A DNA stretch of 49,216 nucleotides, taken from positions 1-49,216 of IMG/VR virus record IMGVR_UViG_3300010379_000009. The stretch is one strand, 5' to 3'. The DNA comes from a virus. The translations under genes and the position numbers were made by a program. Shown here piece by piece: positions 4,256-46,111 of this stretch (position 1 is the first letter of the stretch; the number at the start of each line of letters is the position of its first letter). Under the pieces are notes generated by a model, which was not told the DNA's origin, made no database searches, and was given only the letters and a program-made list of their open reading frames with translations.

Positions 4256-5197
4256 CTAGGTAACGTCTTCCCGTTTACCACCCACCAAGCGCCAACCGGG
4301 AACGCCCCACCCCGGACGCCACGGCATGAGCACGGCGCGATCGTTTGGACGGTTCGGCGGGTACTCGAATCGCGCACCCGTCTCGGGATCTTCGAACTGT
4401 TGCCCCGGGCGCGCTACTTGCCCGTGCAACCGGAATGAATCCTCCGCCACGCGATGGTCGAACGCCTGACCTGTCACGTCGGAAATGTGCTCAGACCAGC
4501 GCATGTGCACGTCACCCTCGCCGATAATCTGGTCGGCGTCCGCGATCGCGTCGGCGCTGGCAGAGTTCTGTGCCCAAGCCGTCTCCGTGCGCGCGATGCG
4601 CTCGGCCTGCCACCATTCGAGCTCGCCCACGTCCTGGATGCGGTCGATCGCCTCGCCCACTGTCTCGCCCATCACCGTTGATTGCGCGAGCTCGTTCTCG
4701 AACCGCCCGATGAGCCGCGCCCCGTACCGCGCCATGGACGACTGCAGACGTCCCGTGGCGGCGTGGCCGGACGGATCGCGCAGCAGGGAGATGGGCCCCG
4801 CCGGCAACGCCCCCGCGAACCGCGCGGCTTCCTCCACGGGCAACACGGGCGTGGTGCCGGCGTAGTGCTCCTCCAGCTTGCGCACGTTGCGCAGGGTGGC
4901 GCCGCGCGCCTCCGCCGCCGCCTCGCGCACGTACGTCGTGGCGTCGCCCGTCATGCGCAGCGTGAGCGCGCGGATGCCCTGACGCAGCTGCACCATCACT
5001 TGGCGCGCGTGGTGCGCCGTGAACGTGTCGCGCGCCTGGCCGCGCATGAGGTGGCGTGACTTGCGCTCCATGTCCGCGAGGGCCCGCTCGTACAGCGTCT
5101 TGAGCCGCGCGGCAGACCCGCGCTCGGCGAGCCTGTCCAGCCGGCGCAGGTGCTCTCGGCTAATCTGCTCGAATACGGCGGCACTCGGTCTTGCCAT
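4256..5197 (-). CDS. Phage head morphogenesis protein (SPP1 gp7 / Mu gpF type)
   Basis: Encodes 313 aa. The C-terminal 120 residues carry the family pattern: a helix with ARTETAWAQNSA, then W-x-E with D-V-x-x-x-A-x-D-H-R, a His-Gly (LHGQVARPGQQF) and a YPPNRPNDRAVLMPWRPGW tail. These minor head proteins associate with the portal inside the procapsid. The N-terminal part is helical and charged. The ATG overlaps the stop of the preceding gene as TAATG. The portal gene is about 8 kb upstream, separated by small genes, which is unusual because the two are normally adjacent. Confidence 0.88.
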   Translation of the reverse strand: MARPSAAVFEQISREHLRRLDRLAERGSAARLKTLYERALADMERKSRHLMRGQARDTFTAHHARQVMVQLRQGIRALTLRMTGDATTYVREAAAEARGATLRNVRKLEEHYAGTTPVLPVEEAARFAGALPAGPISLLRDPSGHAATGRLQSSMARYGARLIGRFENELAQSTVMGETVGEAIDRIQDVGELEWWQAERIARTETAWAQNSASADAIADADQIIGEGDVHMRWSEHISDVTGQAFDHRVAEDSFRLHGQVARPGQQFEDPETGARFEYPPNRPNDRAVLMPWRPGWGVPGWRLVGGKREDVT

Positions 5198-5460
5198 TAC
5201 GCAAACACCACAGCAGCTGCGTTGCATGCCTGCCGCCACTCGAGCGTCTTGGGTACACCGAAGAATGAAGTTTCGTTGCTGCGGTACAGCTCGACCAACA
5301 CACCCGCGGCAACGAGCCTGCGCGCCATGCCGGTATACGTACAGGAATGCCGTGCACCGCCGAGCATGCGTCGGATAATGCCACGCGCGTGGTCGACTAC
5401 CCAATAGTCTGCCCAAAGCCTGGCTTGCGCCGACGATGCGCGAAATGGAACCCTAGCCAT
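5197..5460 (-). CDS. Small winged-helix-like protein (family W)
   Basis: Encodes 87 aa. The middle has a helix ending RRLVAAGVLVELY, then a short strand-rich stretch and a C-terminal helix RQACNAAAVVFA. This matches the pattern of the other family W proteins (L..AGLL, then ...A..VLFA). It is translationally coupled (TAATG) to the head morphogenesis gene. DNA binding is plausible for a winged helix but not shown by any catalytic or contact residue. Confidence 0.72.
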   Translation of the reverse strand: MARVPFRASSAQARLWADYWVVDHARGIIRRMLGGARHSCTYTGMARRLVAAGVLVELYRSNETSFFGVPKTLEWRQACNAAAVVFA

Positions 5461-5761
5461 TGGGCACGCGCGGAGTTTGCCACTCCCAGTGCGACGCGTA
5501 AAACCGCCGCGTTTGCTCGTCAGGCTTGCGGCGGAACGTGAGTCCGAGCATGGCCCGCTGCGAGTGCGTGGGCGCCCAGTAAGCGCGCGCGATCACGCCC
5601 TCGCGCTCTGCCCAGTTTAGCGCGTCGTCGGCGTCGGACGGACTCGTGAAGTACCGCCCCATGGCAGCCGCACACATGGAGTCGACAAGCACCGAGCCGT
5701 GCAGTGACCCGCGCTCGCGCAGTTCAGCCAGCCACCGCTCCCAACCCGCGTGCGGAGTCAT
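5453..5761 (-). CDS. Hypothetical protein, possible divergent winged helix
   Basis: Encodes 102 aa from ATG at 5761 (ATGA overlap). The N-terminal helix includes WERWLAELRERGSL; a central ALNWAEREGVIARAYW followed by a LGLTFR strand resembles the helix-wing part of family W, but the usual C-terminal helix is missing. Function unknown. Confidence 0.65.
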   Translation of the reverse strand: MTPHAGWERWLAELRERGSLHGSVLVDSMCAAAMGRYFTSPSDADDALNWAEREGVIARAYWAPTHSQRAMLGLTFRRKPDEQTRRFYASHWEWQTPRVPNG

Positions 5762-5961
5762 AGCGGCGTACCGCACGCAAGCTTGTAAGCGCACGACCAC
5801 GCAAAGCCCGCGGCCACCATGCGCTCGTACGCCGCGACGATGTCGGTGTGCTTGTTGTGCAATCGCGAACCGGACCACCGCCCGAGCCCATGTCGTTCGC
5901 ACACTACGGTGAAACAGCGATCCGCCGCGAGTGCTTCCACGTAAAGAGCTTGCAGAATCAT
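5758..5961 (-). CDS. Small hypothetical protein
   Basis: Encodes 67 aa starting MILQALYVEALAADRCF. It is helical, with an AAYERMVAAGFAW segment like the recognition helix of the surrounding small proteins. Both ends overlap neighbours as ATGA, so it is firmly within the operon. No known function. Confidence 0.68.
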   Translation of the reverse strand: MILQALYVEALAADRCFTVVCERHGLGRWSGSRLHNKHTDIVAAYERMVAAGFAWSCAYKLACGTPL

Positions 5962-6424: not shown

Positions 6425-6456
6425 AATCTAACCTAAGTCTCCTAATAAGGTGTCAA
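6425..6456 (-). promoter_or_regulatory. Sigma-70-like promoter element, close to start codon
   Basis: TTGACA (6451-6456) and TAGATT (6425-6430) are separated by 20 bases, or about 17-19 if the -10 is read as GGTTAG or TTAGAT. The intervening TTAGGAG and TAGGTTAG copies also occur upstream of the gene ending at 7010. The spacing to ATG is six bases. The repeat of the whole element makes regulation likely. Confidence 0.55.
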
Positions 6457-6468
6457 TCCCCGCTGCGC

Positions 6469-7016: not shown

Positions 7017-7045
7017 AATCTAACCTATCACTCCTAACCTGTCAA
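7017..7045 (-). promoter_or_regulatory. Sigma-70-like promoter, ideal spacing
   Basis: TTGACA at 7040-7045 and TAGATT at 7017-7022 are exactly 17 bases apart. The -10 ends six bases before the ATG at 7010. The spacer contains a GGTTAG repeated after eight bases, shared with the element at 6425-6456. The perfect -35 and spacing make this the best promoter in the window. Confidence 0.68.
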
Positions 7046-7075
7046 TGCCCTTTTTCGCTTTTGTAGCACCCGCAC

Positions 7076-9835: not shown

Positions 9836-10308
9836 CGCCGCGATGGTAGCAGGCCCCGCGGCGCCGCGTCGAGCACGGGCTCGCCGAACGTGTTGGCGAT
9901 CCACGACCAATCGTACCCCGGCAAAGTGGGATTGATCGACTTGTCATCGATAAAATAGTCTCCCAAGGGTTTTCCGACATTGCCTTCGTCGATCGCGTCG
10001 AAAACGCCCGGCAGCTCCGCCGCCACGAACCGGCGCATTTGCTCGAACAGCGCGGCGTTGTACGCCTGCACGCGCAAGCGATCGCGGTCAGCCGAATCCC
10101 CGAGTGTCGGATACTGGTACTTCCCACTCGGTGGCAGCGGATCAAGGTCCGCGTTGAACCGGCGCGCGCGATTGGCCCGGGCCGAGAAGAGCACCAGCTG
10201 GTGCCCGGCGCGCTTGAGCGCGAGCAGCCCGTCGCGCGCGCCTTCTTTGAGCCGCAACGGCGGATCGCGGTGCACCACGGTGCCGTCGAAATCTACGATC
10301 ATGATCAT
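9832..10308 (-). CDS. HAD-superfamily phosphatase/kinase-like protein
   Basis: Encodes 158 aa. Motif I is MIMIVDFDGTV, with both catalytic Asp residues, close to the N-terminus; motif II is LVLFSARAN; a Lys (GKPLGDYFIDDKS) with the acidic motif IV follows near residue 125. Length and order fit small HAD phosphatases such as 5'-nucleotidase-like or polynucleotide-phosphatase-like proteins; the substrate cannot be told. ATG at 10308 is selected because it overlaps the previous stop as ATGA. Confidence 0.87.
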   Translation of the reverse strand: MIMIVDFDGTVVHRDPPLRLKEGARDGLLALKRAGHQLVLFSARANRARRFNADLDPLPPSGKYQYPTLGDSADRDRLRVQAYNAALFEQMRRFVAAELPGVFDAIDEGNVGKPLGDYFIDDKSINPTLPGYDWSWIANTFGEPVLDAAPRGLLPSRR

Positions 10309-10724
10309 GGCTTCACCCACACCCTGTTACCCTCGACGCACGTCACCGTGTACGTGTGCCCGCCAGGGTAGGTACTGCTGGCAAGCGTGAGCTTCATTCC
10401 CGCCGTGAAGTAACTACCGACGCGCATCGTGAGTTGTATATCCGCCGAACCGTCCATCGAACCACGCAACTGTAGCGCAGCCAAACACATCTCGCGCGTC
10501 ACGTCTGGAACGAGTCGGCACTGAAACCGCTTGCTCATGCGACGTTGGTCGAGTGTGAGCACATTCAACGACAAATGCTGCCAAGCCCACGGACCGGCAT
10601 GCCCGCGCGTTTGAACTAGCCCCAAATCCCACAACGCCCCGAGGTGCCCATTCACGCGCCGCGCCTGCGCCTCGTACGGCGCCCACCGTTGCAACTGCTT
10701 GTCCACGCGCCGGGTGTAGCTCAC
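10305..10724 (-). CDS. Winged-helix-like protein of the second W subgroup
   Basis: Encodes 139 aa from GTG at 10724. The helix HLGALWDLGLVQTR followed by a long loop and RLVPDVTREMCLAALQL matches the next two upstream genes (10721-11116, 11113-11424). The C-terminal 45 residues add a beta-rich extension (GSYFTAGMKLTL and HTYTVTCVEGNRVWV). Overlaps on both sides (GTGA, ATGA) show co-translation. Confidence 0.72.
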   Translation of the reverse strand: MSYTRRVDKQLQRWAPYEAQARRVNGHLGALWDLGLVQTRGHAGPWAWQHLSLNVLTLDQRRMSKRFQCRLVPDVTREMCLAALQLRGSMDGSADIQLTMRVGSYFTAGMKLTLASSTYPGGHTYTVTCVEGNRVWVKP

Positions 10725-11116
10725 GGCTTTGCCTTAGGTGCCGCGATGCCCATGAGTTGCGGGAAAATGGCTTGGCGTGACATGTGGGACATTAGGGAAT
10801 CTTGCAACGCCTTGATCATCGACGGGTTGCTAGTGATCTGCGAAAAGTCCACATCACTCTTCGGCACCTCCATCACGGCCACCGCGTCCCGGCACAGCTC
10901 GCGCGTGGCGTGCGGCACCAGGCGCACCACGGTGACGGGCGTGTATCCCGGACTACGACCAATCCACACAGACTCTTCCAGCAATCCCGCGCGCACCAGC
11001 GCGTGCAGCTCGCGCGTAGTCACGCCCAGACGCGCAGCCTGCGTGGCCTCTGAGTCGTACGTGTGCAAACGTATCTCTGCCTTGCGTTCGCGACGTCTCG
11101 TCGTGGCCGAGTTCAC
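10721..11116 (-). CDS. Winged-helix-like protein of the second W subgroup
   Basis: Encodes 131 aa from GTG at 11116. A MerR/HTH-like segment ARLGVTTRELHALVRAGLLEE is followed by a wing with VVRLVPHATRELCRDAVAVME, the same order as its neighbours. The C-terminal 40 residues form a separate helical tail (SMIKALQDSLMSHMSRQ). A DNA-binding regulator is plausible. Confidence 0.74.
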   Translation of the reverse strand: MNSATTRRRERKAEIRLHTYDSEATQAARLGVTTRELHALVRAGLLEESVWIGRSPGYTPVTVVRLVPHATRELCRDAVAVMEVPKSDVDFSQITSNPSMIKALQDSLMSHMSRQAIFPQLMGIAAPKAKP

Positions 11117-11424
11117 GGGGTCACCGCGCCGAAAGTTTGCACGAATTGCGAATAAGTGTTGATGGCTTGCGCGACCTTCTTCTGGAACAAGTGGCCATGC
11201 CGCGGCGTCTGCATCACCGCCAACGCGGCGAGTGCTTGCTTGCACGTGACGCCGCGGACTATCCGCATGCGCGGTGCACGGTAATAGCGTGGGGTACCGC
11301 AGTCTTCCACCAAGCCGGCGTCCCACAACGCGCAGATCTGGTGCATCGTGATGCCGAGTCGGCTGCACTGCACCGTAAAGGTCGCCCACCGGTGCAGCCG
11401 CGACTCCCTGCGTCCGCGCTTCAC
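11113..11424 (-). CDS. Winged-helix-like protein of the second W subgroup
   Basis: Encodes 103 aa from GTG at 11424. SRLGITMHQICALWDAGLVED aligns without gaps with the HTH of the next gene, followed by MRIVRGVTCKQALAALAVMQ. A helical tail contains VAQAINTYSQFVQTF. The three-gene tandem run 10305-11424 appears to have arisen by duplication. Confidence 0.74.
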   Translation of the reverse strand: MKRGRRESRLHRWATFTVQCSRLGITMHQICALWDAGLVEDCGTPRYYRAPRMRIVRGVTCKQALAALAVMQTPRHGHLFQKKVAQAINTYSQFVQTFGAVTP

Positions 11425-11891
11425 TTCCGCCTGCCCTTCTTGGGCGGTGGCATCGCGGGAGCCGGCGCGGATTCGGCCAAGCATTCGCCTGGCGAAATCA
11501 CGCGGTACCTTTTCGTGGGACTGCCGCGTTGGATCACGCCGTCGAGCAACCCGCGCCGCACCCACTCCACCACCTTGGCGTACGGCACGCGGTACCAGCC
11601 CATGACCACGCCGGCCGTCACCCACACGTCCGCGGCGCTGAGGTTGTCCACCACGCGGTAGGTTGCGCCGTCCGGGTCCAGGTACGGCACGCCGGGGAGC
11701 GACGGCGACGCGCGCGGGGCCAGCGCCGCGTCAGTCTGCGCCTTGGCTTGGTTGAGCTGCTCCACGGCGCGCACCTGGCGCGTGGTGCGAATCAACATGT
11801 CCGTCTTGGGTTGTGCGGCCAGCCAGTCCCTAGTTGCGTACAGCGTTTTGCCGTCCTTGATAACTCGCGCGCTCACGGCAGGTGCTTCCAT
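11421..11891 (-). CDS. Hypothetical protein with possible winged-helix C-terminus
   Basis: Encodes 156 aa starting MEAPAVSARVIKDGK. The middle has VPYAKVVEWVRRGLLDGVI followed by KRYRVISPGECL, resembling the helix-wing pattern of family W. It ends in a Pro/Lys-rich tail (PPPKKGRRK). The ATG overlaps the previous gene by 19 bases. Function unknown. Confidence 0.7.
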   Translation of the reverse strand: MEAPAVSARVIKDGKTLYATRDWLAAQPKTDMLIRTTRQVRAVEQLNQAKAQTDAALAPRASPSLPGVPYLDPDGATYRVVDNLSAADVWVTAGVVMGWYRVPYAKVVEWVRRGLLDGVIQRGSPTKRYRVISPGECLAESAPAPAMPPPKKGRRK

Positions 11892-12091
11892 TTTAGCAAG
11901 GCGGCACGGCCACCACGGGATACCGCGGGGCACGGCTGCCGCGGGGCGTGAACCACGACAGTCCATCCGACGTGGGCGCCGTTGATTGTCGCAGAAACGA
12001 CTCGATGGCAGTTACGCCAAGCTGGCGTGAATTCGGTCAGTGATAAGTGTGCTGCCCGTTTCGTTTTGTAGATCACTCTTGCCTCGCTCAT
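11873..12091 (-). CDS. Small hypothetical protein
   Basis: Encodes 72 aa starting MSEARVIYKTKRAAHLSL. It is basic, with beta-like stretches (RVVSATINGAHVGWTVVV). ATG at 12091 overlaps the previous stop as ATGA. No family recognised. Confidence 0.66.
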   Translation of the reverse strand: MSEARVIYKTKRAAHLSLTEFTPAWRNCHRVVSATINGAHVGWTVVVHAPRQPCPAVSRGGRAALLKWKHLP

Positions 12092-12309: not shown

Positions 12310-12616
12310 TGCTGCGAGTAGATTGTGCGCGCGGCGGCCGTTCGTCGCAACGGCGGTCCTCCACGGTAACGTGGTACCCGAACGCGCGCAGCATGTGCGC
12401 CGCGTTGGTGCCGCGTTTGGCGCCGCGCACCTTGGCTTCCCACCGGTCGCCGTCGGGCCCCGCGGTGAAGTGGAACGGTCCGGTCACATACTCGCCACCG
12501 CACACCGCCGCGGCGTTCTGGCAGGCGTCGCGATCCACGTAACGCGCGCGGTGCACCACCACGAGCAGATGGTCGGACATGGCGCGCACGGTGGCCCTGA
12601 ACGTCGGAGTGCTCAC
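12287..12616 (-). CDS. Hypothetical protein
   Basis: Encodes 109 aa from GTG at 12616 (GTGA overlap); ATG at 12580 (MSDHLLVVVHRARYVD) is an alternative start. The main part contains beta-like strands and a Gly/Cys-rich middle (CQNAAAVCGG), and ends in a basic Arg-rich tail. No known motif. Confidence 0.65.
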   Translation of the reverse strand: MSTPTFRATVRAMSDHLLVVVHRARYVDRDACQNAAAVCGGEYVTGPFHFTAGPDGDRWEAKVRGAKRGTNAAHMLRAFGYHVTVEDRRCDERPPRAQSTRSNGAVRRH

Positions 12617-12858
12617 TGCTGCAACGCCAGCCACAACGCGGCAGCCGCTTGTTCGGGTGCAACACCGTTCGCCAGTCTGTACGCAAAACCGTGCCACTCC
12701 ACTAACCCGGTGCTTATCAAGTACGTGCACATTGAATAGGAACTTTCGTCTCCGGCGCCGATGTCTTTCCACCGCACCAGCAACTTGCCGTGCTCAACCT
12801 CACTGCCGCCCAACACGGCGCGAATGAAGTGCCCGGCATTGTACGCGCAACTTCTCAT
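12613..12858 (-). CDS. Small winged-helix-like protein (family W)
   Basis: Encodes 81 aa. The helix TYLISTGLVEW is followed by FAYRLANGVAPEQAAAALWLALQQ, matching family W and especially the next upstream protein (12855-13079), which also ends LWLAVQQ. The two are tandem duplicates with an ATGA overlap. Confidence 0.77.
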   Translation of the reverse strand: MRSCAYNAGHFIRAVLGGSEVEHGKLLVRWKDIGAGDESSYSMCTYLISTGLVEWHGFAYRLANGVAPEQAAAALWLALQQ

Positions 12859-13079
12859 TGCTGCACCGCCAGCCATAGCACGGCGTGCGCCTGCTCGTAT
12901 GTCGCGCCAGGTGTGAGCGCCCACATGTTGACCCCCACAAGCCGGATCATCCCGGCCGTGCGCAACGTGTTGATCAACCCCACGTCGCCCTGGCGCAACG
13001 ATGCGCGTAGTAAAGCGGCAACCGCCGCATCACTCCCCGCGATGCGATGCAGCAGGCCAAGCACCGTGTACCCTTCCAT
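12855..13079 (-). CDS. Small winged-helix-like protein (family W)
   Basis: Encodes 74 aa starting MEGYTVLGLLHRIAGS. INTLRTAGMIRLVGVNMWAL is followed by PGATYEQAHAVLWLAVQQ. It is the family W member closest to the portal gene, 18 bases past the portal stop, and is the tandem duplicate of the next gene. Confidence 0.77.
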   Translation of the reverse strand: MEGYTVLGLLHRIAGSDAAVAALLRASLRQGDVGLINTLRTAGMIRLVGVNMWALTPGATYEQAHAVLWLAVQQ

Positions 13080-13097: not shown

Positions 13098-14990
13098 CTA
13101 CGCCGCGCCGTTCGGGCGTGCGTTCGGGGGCGGCGTCTCCGCGTCCTCCACGCCGAGGATCTTTTCCGCGCCAGTCTCATTGGCGGACATGGTCGCTTTC
13201 GCGAACGTTTGCGCGTACTTCTGGCGGAACTGCGGCACGCTGAGATCCCCGTCCAGCTGCAACGGCGGCAGCCCCTTGCTCGCGCGGATCTCGTTGACCG
13301 TCACGAGGCCCGCGTTGATCTCGTATTCGAAGAACTTGGCCCCGGGCTCCGCCTCGGGCGCGGGCCCCATCATGCGTTGCGTCTCGGCATCCTCCGCCGC
13401 CTGCGCTTGCTTGGCCATGTCGGCCAGCATGGCCTTGGGGTCTTCGACCTGGAAGGTGGACGCCACGAAACGCGACGCGTGCAACGGGTCGACCAGCCCG
13501 CCAGACTTGGCTTGGTTGGCCGCCTGCGTGGCTTTGAGCGCGTCGTCCATCGTGGGCGTCTCGTACGGCGGCCACTGGAATGAGATCTCGCCGCCCTTGC
13601 CCAGCTTGCGTTCAATGATCTTCGTCTTTGTGGTGCCGTCCGGCTGCTCTTCTTCCTCCACGCGCGGCGGAATGCGCAGCACCGTGCGCGTGACGACGCC
13701 GTCCACCATGGCCGTGGACCCGTCCACCGTGCGCGCGGCGCGAATGAGCTTACCCAGCAACCGCTTGACGCCGCGCTCGGCGTACTGCTCGCGCAGCACG
13801 TCGGCCTGCTCGTGCATGGCAGAGTAGTCCTTGGTCACCTCGGTGGCGGTCTTCGCCGCGAAGTTGCGCGACTCCTCGATCACGCACCGCACAATGCGCA
13901 GCGCTTTGGCCTCGAGTCGGTCAGCCTGCTCGATCGCCGTCTTGGGCCCCGAGCCATTCAGCTCGAGGTACTGCGCCGTCTCGCCCGGGTTGAGCCGGAT
14001 GAAGCTGTCACTACCTTTGCGCAGGTTGTCGATCTGGTCCGCGGTCGTGACCACCAACGTCGGATCGCAGTTTGCGATAATTCCACGAGAGCCCTGAGAG
14101 TTCAGCAGATCCACCGTTTCAATCAGATCGAACGCCCCGTGGCAATCCGGTTCGCCGTCGATCTCGTCGGCGGTGTCTGTGTTCTGAATCCACTCGACCG
14201 GGCAGAACCCGAACCCGTGCTCCACCGTGCGCGTGGGTTGGCGGTTCTCGAGCGCGCGGCGCCAGTCCGGCTCGCCGCCGTCGTCGCCGGGCGAGATGCC
14301 CTCCCACATCATGTCCGCCTGCGCGTCGATCACGCGGCACGCCCAGAGCTCGATCTCAATGAACGCGCCGGTGTCCGGATCGCGCAGCCACTCGCGGTAC
14401 GGCCAGCACACCGAGATGTTCTCGAGCTCGCGCGTGAGGCGGTTCGTGAACTTGGGCGTGGTCCACCGCGGGTCGAACACCTCGAACACCGGCAGCCCGT
14501 CCGCGAACTCGAAGCCCAGACCCACGGCGCCCATGCTTCCGCCGAAGTCGCGCGCCGGGATCATCTGCGCCCACAAGCGGCCGGACTCGATCGCGCCCGA
14601 GAGCCAATCTTCGGTGAGCGCGTCTCCCAGCACGCGCACGCGCGGGTGCCGCCGTTGCGAGAAGAGCAGCCCCGTGAAGCGCTTCACGACCACGCGGCCG
14701 AGGTAGTACGGCGCGCTCGGGCGACGCGTGCTCAGTGGTGCCGTGCTCCCGCTGTAGTCCGTGAAGCCCGGCGGGATGTTCTGCCCCCGGCCGATTTCCG
14801 CGTCGATGATCGGGTCGCCATCCCAGTTGTGCGTGCGCGCGTCGTAGCACGTACCCTTGAAGTAACTGTACCGCCGCGAGAGCATGGTGCGGCGCGGATT
14901 GACCGCACCGCCGCCTTGCGTGATCGCCGCGCCCAGCTGGTTGGCGCCTTGGTTGGCCGCGCGCGGGTCGGTGGGTGTGCCGCTGCTCAT
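13098..14990 (-). CDS. Portal protein
   Basis: Encodes 630 aa, a typical length for SPP1 gp6-like portals of tailed phages. It contains an N-terminal head domain (YYLGRVVVKRFTGLLF), long central helices (EQADRLEAKALRIVRCV), the stretch KTATEVTKDYSAMHEQADVL, and near the C-terminus LVTVNEIRASKGLPPLQLDG, a pattern common to portals. The last 40 residues are acidic and Pro/Asn-rich. The portal forms the dodecameric ring for DNA entry and head-tail joining. Its ATG overlaps the stop of the tailspike gene as ATGA. Confidence 0.92.
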   Translation of the reverse strand: MSSGTPTDPRAANQGANQLGAAITQGGGAVNPRRTMLSRRYSYFKGTCYDARTHNWDGDPIIDAEIGRGQNIPPGFTDYSGSTAPLSTRRPSAPYYLGRVVVKRFTGLLFSQRRHPRVRVLGDALTEDWLSGAIESGRLWAQMIPARDFGGSMGAVGLGFEFADGLPVFEVFDPRWTTPKFTNRLTRELENISVCWPYREWLRDPDTGAFIEIELWACRVIDAQADMMWEGISPGDDGGEPDWRRALENRQPTRTVEHGFGFCPVEWIQNTDTADEIDGEPDCHGAFDLIETVDLLNSQGSRGIIANCDPTLVVTTADQIDNLRKGSDSFIRLNPGETAQYLELNGSGPKTAIEQADRLEAKALRIVRCVIEESRNFAAKTATEVTKDYSAMHEQADVLREQYAERGVKRLLGKLIRAARTVDGSTAMVDGVVTRTVLRIPPRVEEEEQPDGTTKTKIIERKLGKGGEISFQWPPYETPTMDDALKATQAANQAKSGGLVDPLHASRFVASTFQVEDPKAMLADMAKQAQAAEDAETQRMMGPAPEAEPGAKFFEYEINAGLVTVNEIRASKGLPPLQLDGDLSVPQFRQKYAQTFAKATMSANETGAEKILGVEDAETPPPNARPNGAA

Positions 14991-16957
14991 CGGTGCGAGC
15001 CTAGCATTCCGCTACGCGCGGCGTCCATGCGTCGTGGCAACCGCTTCCGCGTGTTCCACCGGGCTAGCGCGGCATCCATACCGGCGTCGGGAGTTTTCGC
15101 GGGCGCGTGCATGCCCATCGCCGGGAGTGGACGGTTCTCAGCGCTCACACGCAGCGCCGCCGTTGGCGTGTACGGCGCTCCGCTCTTGTTGAGCAACGTC
15201 ACGATTGCCTGCGTCGAGGTGTCGATCGGGTAAGCCGCGAGGAAGATCCCCGCCGGCATGTTCGGATCTTCGAGCGTGGCGGACAGCGTAGTCTGTCGCG
15301 GCGTGATGCCGGCCGTGGGGCCCACGTTCATGATGAGTGACGCGATGGCACCATCCGGCACTGGCGACACCGACCACGCCGGTGTCGCGTTGACCGTGCT
15401 GTACCCGCCGAGCGTCGGGTCCGTGTTGGGACCAATTTGGAATCCGCCAGCACCGACCATCACGCCGCGCAAGTCGTTGAGCTGCGTTGGTGGGCATGCG
15501 GTAAACTCTGGCAAGTTTCCAAATGACGCGGCAGTGTTGCTCCCGTCAAGCCCGCCATTCTCCGGGTGCAGCACGACCAATCCACGATTGCCACCTCCGA
15601 ACGTCGGGCAATACGTGGTTGTCGCAAAGTCGACCGGAATGCCACCCGCGAAATAGCATGACGTGATGTTCGGCGTGTATCCGCCGTTGAACACGATTGC
15701 CTTCACGCCGGACGCGAACATGCACGACTCGAATCGCGCGCACACCGGCGTGTACAGGTTGCACCACGTGGCCGAGTCGCCATCGCCAAACACACCGCCG
15801 GTCACAGTGAGGCAGATGGACAAGAACTGCGAATCACCGTCGAGAAAATATCCACCCGCCCACGGAGTAGTGCTCGGTCCCTCAACAGACGGCTTGTCGA
15901 TCGTCCACGTGAAGTGCGGGTTGTAGATCGGCGCACCACCGAATTGGCAATCATAAATCCCGACGTCGGCGCTGTAGTCGCATTCGCCTTGTGGACCTTC
16001 CCAGTTGGGAATCGCCGTGGGCGCGAAAGGTGTGTAACCCTGGCGCGCAACGCCGAGTAGTCCGTACCGACAGTTGATGAACCAGCAGTCGCGCACCGTC
16101 GCCCCGATGGTCTGCGCAAACCAAATCCCAATCGTGTTCGCCACCGGGTCAGCCGGTGTGTTGAACGATCCTTGAATCCCGACGCGCTCAATGGTGACGT
16201 TGATCGTGTCCGCGCCGTTCGTGAGACTGTGTCCGTACACGAGGCACACGCCGCCGAACCCCGCCACAGGTGCAATGCACAGATCGGTAATCGCAAGCCC
16301 GTGAGTCGAGAGTGCAGACACGGCAACCGGCCCGTCCACCGCGGTGAGCTGCAACGTGGTGCCGCGCGCACCGGCGTTGTCCATGTACATTCCGCAGCCC
16401 TCGATCGTCACCTCGCGCGCGTCGTCGAGCGCCCAGCGTTGCGAGTGCTTGATCACACCGGGGGGCAGCCTGAGCGTACCGCCACCCACGACAACAACCG
16501 CGCTCGTGTTCGTCGTGACCGCGGTGAACGCATTCGCCAGCGCGATGGAGTTGTCAGTCTGCGTCGAGTCGCACCCAAACCACGACGCGTGCACCGTTCC
16601 CGAGTCGTAAATCCTGATCCACCGCCCCACACCTAAGCCGGCCGTGGGGTCAATGATCGTGCCGCCGTCGTCCGCCAGTACGCACGCCGGGTCCCAGTAA
16701 AAGTGCCCGCCGCCACCGTCGCCAGGGAACACCGCGCCGGCGACGATTGCCACCATGTACGCCACGGTCGGCCCCGGGTTGAAGTTCGCCAGATCGCCGT
16801 TGCGCGCCTTGAGATTGCCGCCGACAGCCACCACGCCCGCGGAACCGAGCACCGTCTGCACCGCGACAACAGGACTGGCCGTCACCGACGCGATTGGAAT
16901 TCCCGTCTGTACGGACGCACCGTCACCCGCGAGCAGCGTGCCACCGACGGACTCCAT
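14987..16957 (-). CDS. Tailspike-like right-handed beta-helix protein
   Basis: Encodes 656 aa. The centre (about residues 110-450) is a run of short beta turns with GGTLRLPPGV, VTIEGCGMYMDNAGA and RDCWFINCRYGLLG, as in pectate-lyase-type beta helices used by tailspikes and host-receptor-degrading enzymes. Near residue 80-110 GGGGHFYWDPA and DSGTVHASWFGCD are typical of phage tailspike entry domains. The C-terminus is a smaller beta-sandwich-like region and a basic tail. A catalytic site cannot be assigned. It lies just before the portal gene, an unusual place. Confidence 0.85.
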   Translation of the reverse strand: MESVGGTLLAGDGASVQTGIPIASVTASPVVAVQTVLGSAGVVAVGGNLKARNGDLANFNPGPTVAYMVAIVAGAVFPGDGGGGHFYWDPACVLADDGGTIIDPTAGLGVGRWIRIYDSGTVHASWFGCDSTQTDNSIALANAFTAVTTNTSAVVVVGGGTLRLPPGVIKHSQRWALDDAREVTIEGCGMYMDNAGARGTTLQLTAVDGPVAVSALSTHGLAITDLCIAPVAGFGGVCLVYGHSLTNGADTINVTIERVGIQGSFNTPADPVANTIGIWFAQTIGATVRDCWFINCRYGLLGVARQGYTPFAPTAIPNWEGPQGECDYSADVGIYDCQFGGAPIYNPHFTWTIDKPSVEGPSTTPWAGGYFLDGDSQFLSICLTVTGGVFGDGDSATWCNLYTPVCARFESCMFASGVKAIVFNGGYTPNITSCYFAGGIPVDFATTTYCPTFGGGNRGLVVLHPENGGLDGSNTAASFGNLPEFTACPPTQLNDLRGVMVGAGGFQIGPNTDPTLGGYSTVNATPAWSVSPVPDGAIASLIMNVGPTAGITPRQTTLSATLEDPNMPAGIFLAAYPIDTSTQAIVTLLNKSGAPYTPTAALRVSAENRPLPAMGMHAPAKTPDAGMDAALARWNTRKRLPRRMDAARSGMLGSHR

Positions 16958-21307: not shown

Positions 21308-21321
21308 ACTAAGTTGCGCGG

Positions 21322-22821: not shown

Positions 22822-22835
22822 GTGGTTCAACTACA

Positions 22836-23601: not shown

Positions 23602-23610
23602 GGTGCAACC

Positions 23611-27560: not shown

Positions 27561-27563
27561 GCA

Positions 27564-28980: not shown

Positions 28981-28987
28981 GATCCCC

Positions 28988-32615: not shown

Positions 32616-32700
32616 GCTCGCTCCGTTGAACTGCGCCTGGCCGCCCGCGGTTGCCCGTCGCACCTTGTTGTGTGAACCCGCGGACGGCCAGACGCACAGA

Positions 32701-33828: not shown

Positions 33829-33829
33829 G

Positions 33830-35046: not shown

Positions 35047-35220
35047 CACTCAACCCTTTCGGGGGCCGTCTCTCCGGCCTGCCACGGCGCTTGGCTATTC
35101 GCGTTGCCGTTCGCCCCATTACCCCAGCCAATCAGGACCCGGGCACATTCCACACATTCGCCTGGGAATCACAACGGCCCGTGCACGCGTGCACGGGTTT
35201 TCGGTGCGGGTGATGAATTC
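35047..35220. other. Intergenic region between SSB-like and RecA genes
   Basis: These 174 bases hold no open reading frame of interest. They contain the perfect palindrome at 35178-35197 and, close to the RecA start, an AAAGGG ribosome site. No clear promoter is seen. Low-GC stretches are absent. Confidence 0.6.
35178..35197. terminator. 20-base perfect palindrome, terminator-like
   Basis: The sequence CCCGTGCACGCGTGCACGGG is an exact inverted repeat, 24 bases after the SSB-like stop. On the plus strand it is followed by TTTTC; on the minus strand it is preceded by AAAA and not followed by a T-run. It could stop plus-strand transcription, stabilise the SSB transcript end, or be a protein-binding operator. 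Confidence 0.5.
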
Positions 35221-36024
35221 CTAGTCTTCGTCGTCGGCCACTTTGCCGTCGTACACGCGGTCCGCCGCAGTGCGCCCACTGCCGCCGCCGCGCCGTTCAC
35301 CCGCGGCACCTCGGCGCTGCTCGCGCGCCGGGCGCTCACCGGCCAGCATGGACTCGATCTCCGCCGCGGTGGGCGAGTCGGCGTAGCGGTCCAGGTCGGG
35401 CATCGCCTTGAGCAACTCGGCCAGCTGCGCGTTGTCCGCGCACACCGGGCTCGGCCCCTTGGGGTCGGTGCCCACGTTGTACTTGGTTTCCAAGTCCTTG
35501 CCCGTCTTGGTGATGATCAAGTCGATGCCGCGGATCGGGTCTACGAAGTTGATGTCATCGCGCAGGGCTTGCAACGCCTTGTGGATGGTGGTCTTGAACG
35601 GCCAAGGCTTGACGCCCAACTCGGGCGCGGCGCGCTGCAACACGTTCGCCACCACCTCGCGTTGCGGTGCTAGGTCCTTCGCGATCTCGCGCTCGATCTG
35701 GTTGGCCGATTGCTCCTTGCGGCGCTGCATCGTGCACGCCGGGCACGGCTGCTTGCCGTTGCTGTTCAAGCTCGGGCAATTGAAGATCACCTTGCGCTCG
35801 AGCCCCGGCACTGAAATGAAGTGCTTCCACACCGTGCGCCACGGCCTGGGCGCGTGCGACGCGCTCGCGCGCGCCGGCAGCATGCGCAAAACCGTCTTGC
35901 CCGGCTCGAGCTTCACCACCGCGCTCGACTTGGCGTTGCGCTTGGCCTCGTCGATGTCCTCGTCGAGCGCCTTGAGATCGAAGTCCGCGTAGAGTGCCAG
36001 CGTTGAATCCGTTTCGTTTGCCAT
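35221..36024 (-). CDS. gp32-like single-stranded DNA-binding protein
   Basis: Encodes 267 aa. A zinc site in the order His68, Cys83, Cys94, Cys97 (VWKHFI, FNCPSLN, CPACTM) matches the HCCC site of T4 gp32. The region around residues 30-60 (SAVVKLEPGKTVLRMLP) and the C-terminal acidic tail (KVADDED) complete the family pattern; acidic tails recruit replication partners. An AAAAGG ribosome site precedes ATG at 36024. It likely coats ssDNA in replication and recombination. Confidence 0.9.
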   Translation of the reverse strand: MANETDSTLALYADFDLKALDEDIDEAKRNAKSSAVVKLEPGKTVLRMLPARASASHAPRPWRTVWKHFISVPGLERKVIFNCPSLNSNGKQPCPACTMQRRKEQSANQIEREIAKDLAPQREVVANVLQRAAPELGVKPWPFKTTIHKALQALRDDINFVDPIRGIDLIITKTGKDLETKYNVGTDPKGPSPVCADNAQLAELLKAMPDLDRYADSPTAAEIESMLAGERPAREQRRGAAGERRGGGSGRTAADRVYDGKVADDED

Positions 36025-36047
36025 CGTCTTTTTCCTTTTGCTTTCTG

Positions 36048-36581
36048 CTACTTGTCGTCGTTCCAATTGTTGTCTGTGCCGTGCCCGACGTCGCGTTGCG
36101 CGCTTCGGATGGTGGGGTTGCCGTCCATCTCTTTTCGCACGTGCGCCCCGAGACTGATCAGCATTTCCTTCTTTGCCTCGATGGCGCGCACCACGCCCTG
36201 CACCCTTACCTTCTGCACCTCCGCGTCGATCATTGCAAGACGCGCGTTCACGTATCGCGGGTCGGTCGATATGCACGCTTTGAGCGTGTTTTCCGTTGAC
36301 TTGCTTCCCTCGGCCACAAGGCGCTCGCGCCACTCAATGTGTAGACGCGCCTCGGTGGTGTCGAGTGCCATGTCCGCCTCGAGATACGTGTCTAGCGCGT
36401 CGGCGTAGCGCGAGTTCCACGCGGCGAGGTCAGACGACAGCCGCACATACTCCGGCTGCAACTGCAACGGGTCCACCCCGGTGCTCTCGCGCAGAAACCG
36501 CTGCTCGGCATCCTCCGGCGGTCGGCGCCATCCCATGGCGTCCGCGGTCAAGTCCGCGCCCGGTACCGCGGACTTACTCAC
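36048..36581 (-). CDS. UvsY-like recombination mediator candidate
   Basis: Encodes 177 aa from GTG at 36581 (GTGA overlap). The central 100 residues are helical (ALDTYLEADMALDTTEA, ENTLKACISTDPRYVNARL, AIEAKKEMLISLGAHVRKEM), a pattern seen in phage proteins next to SSB and thought to be UvsY-like recombination mediators. Such proteins load recombinase on SSB-coated DNA. Neighbours (SSB-like, RecA-like) agree. The family link is from memory of the pattern, not a test. Confidence 0.7.
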   Translation of the reverse strand: MSKSAVPGADLTADAMGWRRPPEDAEQRFLRESTGVDPLQLQPEYVRLSSDLAAWNSRYADALDTYLEADMALDTTEARLHIEWRERLVAEGSKSTENTLKACISTDPRYVNARLAMIDAEVQKVRVQGVVRAIEAKKEMLISLGAHVRKEMDGNPTIRSAQRDVGHGTDNNWNDDK

Positions 36582-36703
36582 CACGCCCACCGTAGGTGTG
36601 TGAACGCAATTCCAACACCGCACGCGAGCGCGTGCGTGACGATCAGCACGAACAAGACAAGCACCGGGCTGCTGAACGGTGACACTGGCCTTGAACCATC
36701 CAT
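36578..36703 (-). CDS. Small membrane protein
   Basis: Encodes 41 aa starting MDGSRPVSPFSSP, with a single hydrophobic stretch of about 22 residues (VLVLFVLIVTHALACGVGI). Stop overlaps the next start as GTGA. It lies 17 bases past the DNA polymerase stop. Tiny membrane proteins are common in phages, sometimes as superinfection-exclusion or lysis factors; role unknown. Confidence 0.58.
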   Translation of the reverse strand: MDGSRPVSPFSSPVLVLFVLIVTHALACGVGIAFTHLRWAW

Positions 36704-36720
36704 GCCACTAGATTGCGCGC

Positions 36721-39390
36721 TCACAGCTTGTACTCCTCCATCGCTCCCCACGTCTCGCCGATTTTGAAGTCTACAACGATAGGAACGTTGTAGTTGTGCC
36801 ACCCCGCCATCGTCTCGTACATGGTCTCGGCTGCTTGCGGCACCTGGTCCTTGCGCACCTCGGCGCAAATGCTGTCGTGCACCGTGAGCACGATCTCCGC
36901 GTCGGTGCGCTCAGCGTCAAAGCGCTCCTGGATGACTGGCAAGCTGCGCGTGCAAAAGTGCGCGGCAGACCCTTGGATGGGTGTATTGACCGCGGCGTTG
37001 GTGGCGTTACGCACCAAGCCCTCGGCGTTCTCACCTTGCGCCGCGATGTTGGGCAATGGGCGCCAATTGGCTTGCTCGCCGTCGATGTACACGGGTGCGC
37101 CGCCGTGCTTTTGCGCCAGCGACACCCACCGATCGAACGTGCGCTTGAGCACGCGGAACTCGCCAAACACGGCCTTGACTAACACGTCGGCGTCGGCAAC
37201 CGGAATGCCCAGCTTGCGCGCGATCGTGTACTCAGGCGCGCCAACCTCGTAAGCGATTGTGAAGTTCACGGTTTTCGCGTCGCGTCGGTAGTGCTTGCGC
37301 TGGTCTTTGGTGAGCGCCTCCCAGTCCGTCACGCCCCACACCTTGGGCGCGAAAAGCTTGGCCGTGGACTCGTGAAAGTCGTGGCCGCTCTTGAATAGAG
37401 CGATCATCACCGGGTCCTGCGAGAGCATGGCCGCCACGCGCAACTCGAGCTGCGAAAAGTCCGCCTCGAGCAGCACGTACCCCGGCCGCGCGCAAAAGCA
37501 GTTGCGCGCCATCTTGCCGTAAAGCTCATCCTTCTCGGGCGACGGCTGGTTCTGCAGGTTCGGCGATTGGCTGGAGATGCGGCCACTTCCGGCCCCATCT
37601 GGCAAGTACGTGGTGTGGATGCGGCCGTCCGCCCGGATCGCCGCGCGCAGCCCCTCGGCGTACGTGCCTTGCAACTTGCGCAGGTGCCGGTAGGCGATGA
37701 TGTCTTTGACTATAGGGTGCGACTTCTTGTCGGCCGCGAGCTCGTCGAGCACGGAGCGATCCGTGCTGAACTCCCCACTGCTCGTCTCTTTGTTGGGCTT
37801 GAGCCCGAGGCGCTTGAACAATAGATCGCGCAACTGCGGCGGGCTGTCGTAGTTGATGTCGCCGTACGGTTTGAGCCGCGCGTCCACCTCCGCCACAGCA
37901 CCGCGCAAGTGCAACGCGAACGCGTCGATGGCCACGCGGTTGGCCAGAATGCCGGTGCGCTCGATGCGCGCGAGCGCGCGCATGGCAGGGTGCATCACCT
38001 TGGTCCACGCCCGCGCCAAGTCCGGCCGGTTGGTGAGCGTGGGCAGCAACTCGTCCACCAACAAGTCAGTCGCCAGCGTGTCACGCGCGTTGTACCGGGC
38101 GCGCACCGACGGATTCATGTACCGGTAGGCATACTGGATTGTTTCGGCCGCACCCGAATGAATGAGCTCTAGCACGCGCGCGGGCACGTCCTCGCGCTTG
38201 ACGCCCTTGGGCTCGTACGGTTTACGCGACTTGCCCGACGCGAGCGGCGCGCGGTACGGCTCGTTGGCGAGCTTGGTCAGGTCCGCTTCGATTACCGAAC
38301 GTGTGTCCTCGGCCTCCTGCTTGTGACCGCCCATGCCCACGAGCTCGGCCATCGTCTCGAGCTTGCCGTCCGCGTCGCCGCCGTCGCGCAGCTTGCGCAA
38401 GAGGCGCGTGTCCAAGTGCATGTGCGCCGTCACGTCCACGTGCACGCGCGGGTCGCACCACACGGCCAGCGCGTCGTACTTGAGGTTGTGCCCCGCGAGC
38501 AACTTCGCCCGTAGCAAGTCCACCAACGCCGCGCGCGTCACCGGGTCTTCGATCGCCGCCCAATCCCACGTGTACCCGCAAGCGGCGCCGTGCCCTCGCA
38601 GCGTGATGCAGTCGATCCGGAAATCGCCGTCAAACATCACGCCCGACGTCTCGGTGTCCAGCGTGATGAACTCGTGCGGCACCAGCGCCATCATGGCGGT
38701 GTTGGCGCTCGCCGCGTCGCACACCTGCACCAGCACCTGGTCGCGCTGCGGCGCCTTGGGTACCGGGCACGTGAGCGCCCATTGCAAATCCCCCTCGAAC
38801 TGCCGCGCGTGGAACCGGTTACGCAACGCGGCCGCGGGGTTCATCGTGAAGAACACCGGCACCCAGTCGCCGTCAGGCTTGGCGTCGTCGATCCACCACC
38901 CGAACCCGCGGCGCACCGACATGACGGGCGGGCTGCGCCCGAGCACGGACAGCGCCGCCTTAGCCCCCATGACCACGATGCGCGACGGCTTGGCAGCGCG
39001 AATGGCCGCCGCGGTGTACGGACGGCACGCCTCCACGTGCTTGGGCTTCACCTCCGCCGCCCCGGGGGCGCAGCGCACGGCGTTGCCCATGACCACCGGT
39101 CCGCGCCAATGCTTGGCCATGAGCCCGCGCAGGTACCGCCCGCTGTCGCCCGAGAACGGGCGCCCTACCCGGTCCTCCACCTTGCCGGGCGTCTCGCCAA
39201 TCAGGTACACGCCGCCGTGCACCGCAGTCGACCCAGCTTCGGTGTTCTCGGCCGCGTCGCGCATGCACTTGGTCTGCGCACCTAACGCGTGCAGCTCACA
39301 CCGCTGGCAGTCGCCGTTGAATGGCAGCGGGTCTTCCCACCCGGCCTCCGCTTGCGGCGCCACGGGGTAGAGGGGCAGCGCTGCGCTCAC
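36721..39390 (-). CDS. UDG-DNA polymerase I fusion
   Basis: Encodes 889 aa from GTG at 39390 (GTGA overlap). Residues 1-210 form a family-4-type uracil-DNA glycosylase: CQRC (28-31), GETPGKVED (65-73), NAVRC (Cys107), CRPY (Cys122), i.e. four Cys for an iron-sulfur cluster; the catalytic HPA motif reads NPAA (184-187), losing His. An exonuclease follows: LDTETSG (245-247), NLKYDA, YNARDT. The polymerase has ADFSQLELR (Asp644), the O-helix RRDAKTVNFTIAYE (702-715) and VHDS (837-840), where most family-A enzymes have HDE. Main replicative polymerase; the glycosylase may scan for uracil or a modified base. Confidence 0.93.
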   Translation of the reverse strand: MSAALPLYPVAPQAEAGWEDPLPFNGDCQRCELHALGAQTKCMRDAAENTEAGSTAVHGGVYLIGETPGKVEDRVGRPFSGDSGRYLRGLMAKHWRGPVVMGNAVRCAPGAAEVKPKHVEACRPYTAAAIRAAKPSRIVVMGAKAALSVLGRSPPVMSVRRGFGWWIDDAKPDGDWVPVFFTMNPAAALRNRFHARQFEGDLQWALTCPVPKAPQRDQVLVQVCDAASANTAMMALVPHEFITLDTETSGVMFDGDFRIDCITLRGHGAACGYTWDWAAIEDPVTRAALVDLLRAKLLAGHNLKYDALAVWCDPRVHVDVTAHMHLDTRLLRKLRDGGDADGKLETMAELVGMGGHKQEAEDTRSVIEADLTKLANEPYRAPLASGKSRKPYEPKGVKREDVPARVLELIHSGAAETIQYAYRYMNPSVRARYNARDTLATDLLVDELLPTLTNRPDLARAWTKVMHPAMRALARIERTGILANRVAIDAFALHLRGAVAEVDARLKPYGDINYDSPPQLRDLLFKRLGLKPNKETSSGEFSTDRSVLDELAADKKSHPIVKDIIAYRHLRKLQGTYAEGLRAAIRADGRIHTTYLPDGAGSGRISSQSPNLQNQPSPEKDELYGKMARNCFCARPGYVLLEADFSQLELRVAAMLSQDPVMIALFKSGHDFHESTAKLFAPKVWGVTDWEALTKDQRKHYRRDAKTVNFTIAYEVGAPEYTIARKLGIPVADADVLVKAVFGEFRVLKRTFDRWVSLAQKHGGAPVYIDGEQANWRPLPNIAAQGENAEGLVRNATNAAVNTPIQGSAAHFCTRSLPVIQERFDAERTDAEIVLTVHDSICAEVRKDQVPQAAETMYETMAGWHNYNVPIVVDFKIGETWGAMEEYKL

Positions 39391-39545
39391 CGGTACCCCG
39401 CCGCGACCATGCCCAACACCAGCAGTGAGATCCACCCCAGCGTTCCGTAAAATGCCACGTTCTCACCCCACAAATTGTAGAGCCCCTGCTCCACGAACCC
39501 GGTGGTCACCAAGAACGCAGCCACGGCCAGCAACACGCGCACCAC
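39387..39545 (-). CDS. Small two-segment membrane protein
   Basis: Encodes 52 aa from GTG at 39545: VVRVLLAVAAFLVTTGFVEQ, then a turn with WGENVAFYG, then WISLLVLGMVAAGYR. Two hydrophobic segments cross the membrane. Its stop overlaps the polymerase start as GTGA, so translation is coupled. Unknown role; it mirrors the 41-aa membrane protein on the other side of the polymerase. Confidence 0.62.
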   Translation of the reverse strand: MVRVLLAVAAFLVTTGFVEQGLYNLWGENVAFYGTLGWISLLVLGMVAAGYR

Positions 39546-44203: not shown

Positions 44204-45640
44204 CTAACTGCGTTCAATTACCTCGTAACCTTCCCCCAAGTACGCACGTCGGCGTGACCGGGCGTGCGCGTGCAACCACTCGCACGGCTTGTGGTCGTAC
44301 ACGCCGCGCTTGTCCACCGTGCGCCGGCAACCGCACCCCACGTCCAGCAAGTCCACCACGGTGAACGCGTCCTTCACCACGTTGCCCGCCCGATCGAGCC
44401 TGCGCGAACCGCGGCCGGCTTGCTGCAACGCCGCGATGTGCGACTTGCCGCCGGCCGCGTTGATCACCGTGGCCAGCGTGGGAATGTTAATGCCGGCCTG
44501 GAACACCACGTTGGCCACGATCACGTCCGTGTCGCCGTGCTCGAGCCTGCGCACGGCCGCCTCGCGTTCGGGCGTGGCCTTTTCCCCCCACATGAACTCT
44601 GCGGGCGTGCCGGCGCGCGTGAGCGCTTCAGCTATCAATTTCCCGTGCTCCACGCGGGAGACGAACACCAGCGCCGGCTTTTTCGCCTTGCGCGCTTCAG
44701 CCATCACCACGCGGTTGCGCGACCCGAGCGCCACGAGCGCGTCGTACGCGTCGGCGTAACCCGACCAGTCCAGCCCATTCACTTCCGCGCGCGGCATCTG
44801 CACCTTGACCAGCTCCACGCGCGCCTTGGCGATCACGCCCAGGTCCACCAACGTCTTCTGCTCGATGCGGTAGATGCCCGGGCCGATGGCCGCCACCGCG
44901 AGCAAGCTCTTGCGATCGCCGCGGTCGAACGGCGTGGCGCTGTACCCGTAACGCCAGTACGCGTTAGGGCACGCCATGGCCACCTGCCAGTACGTGTCGG
45001 CAGGCAACCCGTGTACTTCATCCACGCTGAATGCCCCGAGTGACGCCAGCCACTTGATGCACCACTTGTCCTTGCGGCGCAGCGCGGCGTACACGGATTG
45101 GAACGTCGCCACCGTCACGCGCGCGGTGCGCCACACGCCTTCGCCGATGCGTCCGGCGACTTCCCCCGTGCGCGACTCGAACCGCGTGGCGATCTCTTCG
45201 AGCAATGATTTACTCGGCACGAAGATCCCCCACGTGCACGGCAACACGCACGCAAGTGCCGCCATCAATTCGGTTTTCCCAGAACCGGTTGGTGCGTGGA
45301 AAATTCCGCGGCCGCGCTCGAGCCCCACGTCCAACGCCGCGTCCTGAAAGTCGAACAGCCACCCCACGTCCGCGTGCAGGTCTGGCGCGCACGGGCGCAC
45401 GCGGCGGTCGATCACTTCGACCTTGTAGCCGTCCTCCGTCGCACCCTCGAGCACGATGGGCAAGAGCCCCGTGGGGAACGACATGTTGAGCAGGTTGAGC
45501 ATGCGCCTGCGGTTGCCGTGGTCGCCGCGACGGAAGCGCGCGTTCGGGTCGGGCATGCCGAGATAGTTGTCCAGGTAAGCGATCTCGCCGTCGGTGTACT
45601 GCGACAGCGTGACGTTAGTATTTTGAACTGTGGCCCACAC
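44204..45640 (-). CDS. Superfamily 2 helicase
   Basis: Encodes 478 aa from GTG at 45640; an AAGGAG site lies ten bases upstream. Motif I is APTGSGKTE (about 116-124), motif II SVDEVHGL, motif III GYSATPFDRG, and motif VI QQAGRGSRRLD. The C-terminal 40 residues have a Cys-rich VGCGCRRT. Similar to phage UvsW-like or type III-restriction-like helicases, which act on branched DNA or start replication. It overlaps the preceding gene by 26 bases. Confidence 0.9.
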   Translation of the reverse strand: MWATVQNTNVTLSQYTDGEIAYLDNYLGMPDPNARFRRGDHGNRRRMLNLLNMSFPTGLLPIVLEGATEDGYKVEVIDRRVRPCAPDLHADVGWLFDFQDAALDVGLERGRGIFHAPTGSGKTELMAALACVLPCTWGIFVPSKSLLEEIATRFESRTGEVAGRIGEGVWRTARVTVATFQSVYAALRRKDKWCIKWLASLGAFSVDEVHGLPADTYWQVAMACPNAYWRYGYSATPFDRGDRKSLLAVAAIGPGIYRIEQKTLVDLGVIAKARVELVKVQMPRAEVNGLDWSGYADAYDALVALGSRNRVVMAEARKAKKPALVFVSRVEHGKLIAEALTRAGTPAEFMWGEKATPEREAAVRRLEHGDTDVIVANVVFQAGINIPTLATVINAAGGKSHIAALQQAGRGSRRLDRAGNVVKDAFTVVDLLDVGCGCRRTVDKRGVYDHKPCEWLHAHARSRRRAYLGEGYEVIERS

Positions 45641-45884
45641 GGCGCAGCAACTCCTTGGCCTCGTCTCCGGTTGGCACGTATTTGAACCGTGCATCTTCGC
45701 AAAATAGCAGCGCGTCGCGCTCCTCGAGCACCAGCACCTTGAGCACCAGCACGCGCTTGCCGCCCGAGTACCGCGCCACGATGCACGCCTTGCCACCCTT
45801 GGTGGACGCTATGCGCACGAACGCCAGGTACACGCCGTGTTTGTACCGCTTGTCCATCACGCACATGGGATCGCCGCTCTTCAT
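45615..45884 (-). CDS. Small hypothetical protein
   Basis: Encodes 89 aa from ATG at 45884 (ATGA). The beta-like strands (VYLAFVRIAST, CIVARYSGG and KRVLVLKVLVLEERDAL) are followed by a helix (EAKELLRRVG). No family recognised; the position before the helicase suggests a partner. Confidence 0.68.
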   Translation of the reverse strand: MKSGDPMCVMDKRYKHGVYLAFVRIASTKGGKACIVARYSGGKRVLVLKVLVLEERDALLFCEDARFKYVPTGDEAKELLRRVGHSSKY

Positions 45885-46111
45885 GACCGCAACACCACGA
45901 GCACCGCCACAATTTGGTCCAGTGTGACGCCGTCTGATACCAAATAGCGCGAACACAGCTCCCACCCGCGCGCAGGGACGTAGCGCAGCATGCCGGTGTT
46001 CACCAAATTGAGCACAGCAAATACAGCAAACCTTTCGCTGGCGTAGCGCCAGGGTTCCGGCAACCGCCGACGCAACTCAGACCACGTCATTGGTCGCGTC
46101 GGCGTCTTCAC
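45881..46111 (-). CDS. Small winged-helix-like protein (family W)
   Basis: Encodes 76 aa from GTG at 46111. VFAVLNLVNTGMLRYVPARG is followed by YLVSDGVTLDQIVAVLVVLRS, a clear family W unit and the only one in the early region. Overlaps ATGA with the next gene and GTGA with the previous. Confidence 0.77.
   Translation of the reverse strand: MKTPTRPMTWSELRRRLPEPWRYASERFAVFAVLNLVNTGMLRYVPARGWELCSRYLVSDGVTLDQIVAVLVVLRS

Follow-up and report, generated by a model that had tools for sequence, protein, structure and literature searches.

A family of small, predicted winged-helix proteins with at least 16 members in a 49-kb phage record

The IMG/VR viral record IMGVR_UViG_3300010379_000009 (49,216 bases, approximately 65% GC; hereafter the window) carries on its minus strand a set of small related genes, here called family W. 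All 16 open reading frames (ORFs) named in a sequence-only reading of this DNA are present on that strand. As that reading had proposed, they occur both in tandem arrays and at scattered sites: they occupy seven places (5197; 10305-11424; 12613-13079; 20195-21307; 22836-23601; 25126-25905; 45881), tandem arrays being found at five of the seven, and in 11 of the 16 genes the inferred start overlaps the preceding stop codon. Their products have a common layout, h..L[VA]..G[LMV][LVI], followed by a wing of 4-39 residues and by [FYVW][RK][LI].PG[VML]T.EQ[AV]..[AV] near the C-terminus. This phage contains at least 16 relatives of one small protein.

The family relationship was examined with sequence profiles. 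A seed profile made from W20802, W20542 and W21056, the tandem genes after TerL, together with two counterparts from locus L005 of a related contig, was searched against 1058 six-frame ORFs. Its next matches were an unseeded L005 ORF (E = 7e-10), W5197 (9e-4), W20195 (1e-3) and W12613 (2e-3), with most of the remaining listed genes scoring just under W12613. After one iteration W25376, W12855 and W11113 reached approximately 5e-4, and the iterated profile converged on precisely the 16 listed genes of the window, together with members in related contigs; a gap separated them from the next ORF. Because iteration inflates significance, a leave-one-out run was made in which each profile was built without the test member and without anything resembling it at a BLAST E < 1e-3, using core segments trimmed by hand, which is a limitation of the test. 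Fifteen of the 16 members scored above every non-member ORF in the window and above each of the 4320 shuffled decoys, at E values between 5e-10 and 0.025; the exception was W5197 (E = 0.13), below two non-member ORFs. Mutual profile detection beyond decoys, our test of a paralogous family within one phage, was thus obtained for 15 of the 16, and both the grouping of the listed genes into one family and their linkage beyond chance, which had been suggested as a check, are borne out. The ORFs are short, overlapping and diverged, and many member pairs are only weakly identical, so that a chance pattern of short GC-rich ORFs could be imagined; however, we give it next to no credence and consider a composition artefact ruled out, given the leave-one-out scores against real ORFs and decoys, paralogy at the DNA level, members in an independent contig and the negative control contigs.

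Searches beyond close relatives were negative. Approximately 320 kb of more distant phage contigs held no convincing member (best E = 0.02), a first scan with a single protein found no relatives, scans with subfamily alignments returned only the already known L022 locus, and the portal and one W subfamily, scanned against genome contigs, gave no match. Pfam, NCBIfam, PHROG and PADLOC showed no significant match for family W, and neither did tblastn of a central member against INPHARED phages. Family W is therefore a new family of small proteins that has expanded in one lineage.

The members differ in length and build (E values below are from the leave-one-out run). The first gene after TerL is W21056 (21056-21307; 83 amino acids (aa) with an inferred start; E = 1.3e-3), and the array continues with W20802 (20802-21059; 85 aa; 5e-10), which shares direct repeats with its two neighbours, W20542 (20542-20805; 87 aa with an inferred GTG start; 5e-6) and W20195 (20195-20545; 116 aa; 6e-4), which has two W-like units, the first without the last helix, and two profile domains. 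Between the gene at the TerS position and TerL lies W22836 (22836-23060; 74 aa; 9e-4), overlapping the W23053 ORF (23053-23601; 182 aa; 0.02), whose W domain is C-terminal (approximately 23053-23256). The N-terminal half of the latter is probably a second, damaged W unit, and the last helix of this unit appears to have been frameshifted: positions 23298-23405 of the minus strand hold a probable W-unit remnant in another frame, which ends in DQLCDAVQLVRA and a stop codon, belongs to repeat family D2 and in translation gives a weak profile match (E = 0.12). A further array comprises W25126 (25126-25383; 85 aa; 0.02), W25376 (25376-25630; 84 aa; 2.5e-5) and W25627 (25627-25905; 92 aa, with a basic N-terminus; 5e-4). 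After the portal gene, W12613 (12613-12858; 81 aa; 7e-6) stands in tandem with W12855 (12855-13079; 74 aa; 2.5e-4), and the portal-downstream site proper holds W11113 (11113-11424; 103 aa with an inferred start; 1e-4), W10721 (10721-11116; 131 aa with an inferred GTG start; W domain and tail; 0.025) and W10305 (10305-10724; 139 aa; W domain and C-terminal extension; 1e-3). Two copies are single: W5197 (5197-5460; 87 aa), which lies immediately upstream of the head-morphogenesis gene and abuts it, and W45881 (45881-46111; 76 aa with an inferred start; 3e-4), between an HTH_17-like gene and the helicase gene. Several starts had earlier been placed too far upstream; stop/start overlaps point to 20805, 12858, 11424, 11116 and 46111, among others, and the start codons are supported by prediction. 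Beside W5197, ORF 5453-5902 encodes a helix that ends in EREGVI as well as a stretch resembling a wing; it was not detected by the profile and is possibly a very diverged winged helix.

Tandem neighbours are often mutual closest relatives (W20802/W20542, W12613/W12855, W22836/W23053 and W11113/W10721), and the family has multiplied mainly by duplication of adjacent copies. W20802 and W20542 are 73% identical in DNA over 100 bp. W20802 moreover looks like a mosaic of its two neighbours at the DNA level, because its end is shared with W20542 (89% of 36 nt) and the region near its start with W21056 (92% of 26 nt). The borders of the same gene carry a 32-nt inverted repeat, with the left arm (20780-20811) at the W20802/W20542 junction and the right arm (21043-21074) at the W21056/W20802 junction. 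With 27 of 32 positions paired it ranks first among the short-range inverted repeats of the window, 165 Markov simulations having reached a maximum of 26, and it is a possible trace of the origin of this copy.

Copies also turn over between close relatives. Loci L005 and L022 belong to one contig, IMGVR_UViG_3300037840_000556, whose TerL is 93% identical to that of the window. Its TerL-downstream site (L022) has a different set, with extra intact members and an apparently broken counterpart of W21056, while at its portal-downstream site one ORF fuses W11113-like and W10305-like units, the W10305 homologue being the C-terminal half of this fused gene (L022:12226-12792). A more distant genome, G003 (64,239 bases; TerL 62%, portal 52%), is for the most part collinear with the window and has one clear W member, at the portal-downstream site, and a weak candidate in the TerS-TerL gap. 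No member was found directly after TerL in G003, or after TerL in locus L006. Within the TerS-TerL gap, L031:17431-17736 (G003 37231-37536) encodes a small protein with a diverged W layout (RIDALETAGVL..NYELLAPYTWDDALCIDRLL), and its profile score is not significant. From these few genomes, the simplest reading would be that the lineage of the window and L022 multiplied a starting set of one or two copies, although the other relatives may instead have lost theirs. In all relatives seen, the presumed ancestral site adjoins a conserved gene with a helix-turn-helix (HTH)-like segment (WVTAGVVMGWY..V.EWVRRGLLD..SPTKRYR; window 11421-11966, L022 11774-12232, L006 7049-7570, L026 12099-12770). This gene has no Pfam match, and descent of family W from it was rejected, since profile comparison gave no link between them (probability 0.2%).

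The W proteins evolve faster than the structural genes. For orthologue-like pairs between the window and L022 (W20542, W11113, W10305 and W20195) the ratio of nonsynonymous to synonymous substitution rates (dN/dS) was 0.45-0.63, compared with 0.142 for TerL and 0.136 for the portal; these values are rough, coming from Nei-Gojobori-type counting on short genes with dS up to approximately 1. They show weaker constraint, not positive selection.

Structure prediction, likewise suggested as a check, supports the proposal of a winged-helix-type fold. The AlphaFold2 model of W20802 (25-sequence alignment) had a mean predicted local distance difference test (pLDDT) score of 85.3 and a predicted template modelling (TM) score of 0.72, with helices at residues 14-21, 31-43 and 73-84 and strands at 48-50 and 64-66. 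For the divergent member W11113 (11-sequence alignment; pLDDT 84.7), helices were predicted at 5-10, 16-23, 27-35, 61-72 and 77-98 and strands at 39-42 and 52-55, and both models have the order helix-helix-hairpin-helix. In Foldseek comparisons with the PDB, W20802 matched mainly MarR, PadR, ArsR and Fur winged helices, along with a few unrelated helical proteins (best E = 0.1, TM approximately 0.47), while the top 50 matches of W11113 were winged-helix regulators, nearly all of the MarR family (best E = 7e-3, probability 0.99), with TM of 0.3-0.4 and a high root-mean-square deviation over the whole length. Sequence-profile searches of the PDB gave no significant match; several of the sub-threshold matches fall in proteins that carry winged helices (the MCM C-terminus, MntR, HxlR, S19e and Rio2). 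On these models, family W is very probably a minimal winged helix.

MarR proteins (7kfs, 3eco, 3gfj and others) resemble the W proteins in the order helix-helix-hairpin-helix, in a recognition helix ending GL[LIV] and in a wing followed by an 'L..G' turn, and the winged-helix topology of MarR is seen in both AlphaFold2 models and their Foldseek neighbours, which are predictions with no E below 0.001. In contrast, W proteins are approximately half the size and have a family-specific GVTxEQA C-terminal helix. We do not place them within MarR, because the MarR Pfam profile gave no match above cut-off (one member reached E = 0.056 to MarR_2) and the dimerisation helices are missing. No member matched the HTH_17/excisionase Pfam profile, and one member matched the AbiEi antitoxin winged helix (PF13338) below cut-off (E = 0.014; PADLOC 0.024).

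The claim that no known phage family reaches such a copy number was too strong. The jumbo-phage review that was the sole useful precedent in our literature search reports approximately 35 zinc-ribbon copies in Bacillus phage G, and a median of two winged-helix/HTH specific transcription factors per jumbo phage, with a range of 1-15 (PMC7824862). The phage G zinc ribbon is the closest precedent, being a one-phage expansion of a small presumed DNA-binding protein, although it has another fold and belongs to a jumbo phage with a far larger genome than this 49-kb contig. The jumbo-phage transcription factors are also phage-encoded winged-helix or HTH proteins in several copies; however, those counts pool different families, whereas W is one family with 16 copies inside long gene arrays. 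Expansion of a small DNA-binding protein in one phage was therefore already known, and what is new is the family itself and its density in a 49-kb record.

The minus strand is nearly gap-free, with few gaps of at least 40 nt lacking an ORF of at least 40 aa, such ORFs being common by chance at this GC content. A promoter-like motif, GGGCATTGACANNTTAG, occurs on this strand exactly at 49065-49081 and 7034-7050, with two mismatches at 6445-6461 and with three at 40466 (0.6 matches expected; four reached in none of 100 shuffles). The motif was not found in the other fetched loci, and simple sigma70 scans, which covered consensus promoters only, found nothing in 19500-39400. Promoter-like sites are found near the ends of the leftward gene array only, far from most W copies; most copies therefore seem to lie deep in long transcripts, which speaks against a local operator for each copy. 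Co-transcription of the copies is supported by prediction. The two sites near 7 kb moreover have a leader in common, GGTTAGATTRACAACATGAAC, which precedes short genes.

Most recognisable genes of the window lie on the minus strand. The genes recognised include a head-morphogenesis gene (4256-5197, inferred), the portal (13098-14990), a tail-spike-like gene (14987-16957), TerL (21322-22830), a PAPS reductase (26427-27560), ParB-like genes, the helicase and the HTH_17-like gene (46108-46380; HTH_17 at E = 2e-4, below cut-off). No tRNA genes were found in the window. An 8.7-kb contig, L023 (IMGVR_UViG_3300032160_000777), encodes a DNA polymerase 100% identical to that of the window and is apparently the same phage in a second record. 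At positions 1-719 of L005/L022, an intein/LAGLIDADG-like sequence, recognised by eye in the translation, apparently interrupts TerL; the window TerL does not have it. The gene after the W array in L022 (approximately 3600-4030) encodes at its C-terminus a segment similar to an EF-Ts/UBA motif (VREATGASYADCKRALE), seemingly missing from its window counterpart (19947-20273).

Taken together, we favour a reading of the W proteins as trans-acting, fast-diversifying nucleic-acid-binding accessory proteins over protein decoys, local regulators and near-neutral proliferation, with a probability of roughly 0.45. A minimal winged-helix protein of approximately 75-140 aa would consist of a short helix, a helix at the recognition position ending GL[LIV], a wing hairpin and a PG[VM]T.EQA..A C-terminal helix. 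One or two ancestral copies, at the portal-downstream site and perhaps also in the TerS-TerL gap, would have been amplified within one phage lineage through duplication in tandem, recombination among the copies and their spread to further gene junctions. Copies probably co-transcribed and translationally coupled in long leftward gene arrays would, through their variable wings, acquire different targets in host or phage DNA and may serve as small accessory factors in host takeover or counter-defence. Nucleic-acid binding, the targets, such a role and the order of events are what we infer from the evidence above. Fast change, copy turnover and near-absence from the collinear G003 suggest dispensable accessory functions, and the W proteins resemble a rapidly changing accessory toolkit more than core components.

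Several observations weigh against this reading. Lysine and arginine are scarce at exposed positions of the recognition-position helix (0-26% per column), several of which are hydrophobic, and DNA binding by all copies is therefore not assured. Seven of the 16 members have isoelectric points (pI) of 5.1-8.4 and are not clearly basic; the other nine, with a pI of at least 9.9, speak for the reading. The dimerisation helices of MarR are largely absent, W20802 ending after one C-terminal helix and W11113 having a second; the Foldseek E never falls below 0.001 and TM-scores are 0.3-0.5; the two AlphaFold2 alignments have members in common; and matches to defence-related models are weak and single.

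Some of the same observations would suit decoys or inhibitors built on a winged-helix scaffold, whose wing and recognition helix would bind host proteins, such as defence regulators or RNA polymerase, rather than DNA. The hydrophobic or neutral recognition-position helix, the strongly variable wing, the non-basic members and the weak AbiEi matches point this way, and a decoy or anti-host function would fit the fast evolution and copy turnover. However, basic proteins make up more than half of the family, no partner protein is known and the AbiEi matches are below cut-off and concern one member, which leaves this explanation possible though rather doubtful. Somewhat more speculative, and unlikely as it stands, is the idea that this compact phage maintains minimal winged-helix effectors as a diversifying set comparable to an effector gene family, in which variable wings on a fixed scaffold would be reshuffled by recombination between tandem copies and hit different host regulatory or defence targets. 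The suggestion that the copies regulate the phage's own transcription in a module-specific manner draws on the fold, on their position at the borders of the genes for head, terminase, tail and replication and on the frequency of winged-helix transcription factors in large phages (PMC7824862). It went unsupported and seems improbable: the nearly gap-free coding, the remoteness of promoter-like sites in the consensus scans, a recognition helix poor in lysine and arginine and the seven less basic proteins speak against it, and copy number differs between close relatives, the collinear one having only one or two. Near-neutral or selfish proliferation, in which short coupled genes would duplicate by recombination at junctions and be kept with little function, could account for the tandem arrays, fusions, broken copy, remnant, inverted repeat and relaxed dN/dS, but dN/dS does not reach 1 and even very diverged copies retain the core signature, and therefore the genes are under constraint; such a load would also be unusual in a compact phage genome, and we consider this explanation more improbable still.

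In family W, the expansion of paralogues in a mid-sized phage can be followed cleanly, and its intermediates (tandem copies, mosaics, fusions and broken copies) are visible. The window phage spends approximately one tenth of a compact genome on it (4.8 of 49.2 kb, the sum of the listed coordinates), while a collinear relative is nearly without it. Its members already supply a range of natural variants with which the binding capacities of a minimal winged helix could be surveyed. Should their products act on host defence or transcription, these arrays would provide new anti-host factors in compact form.

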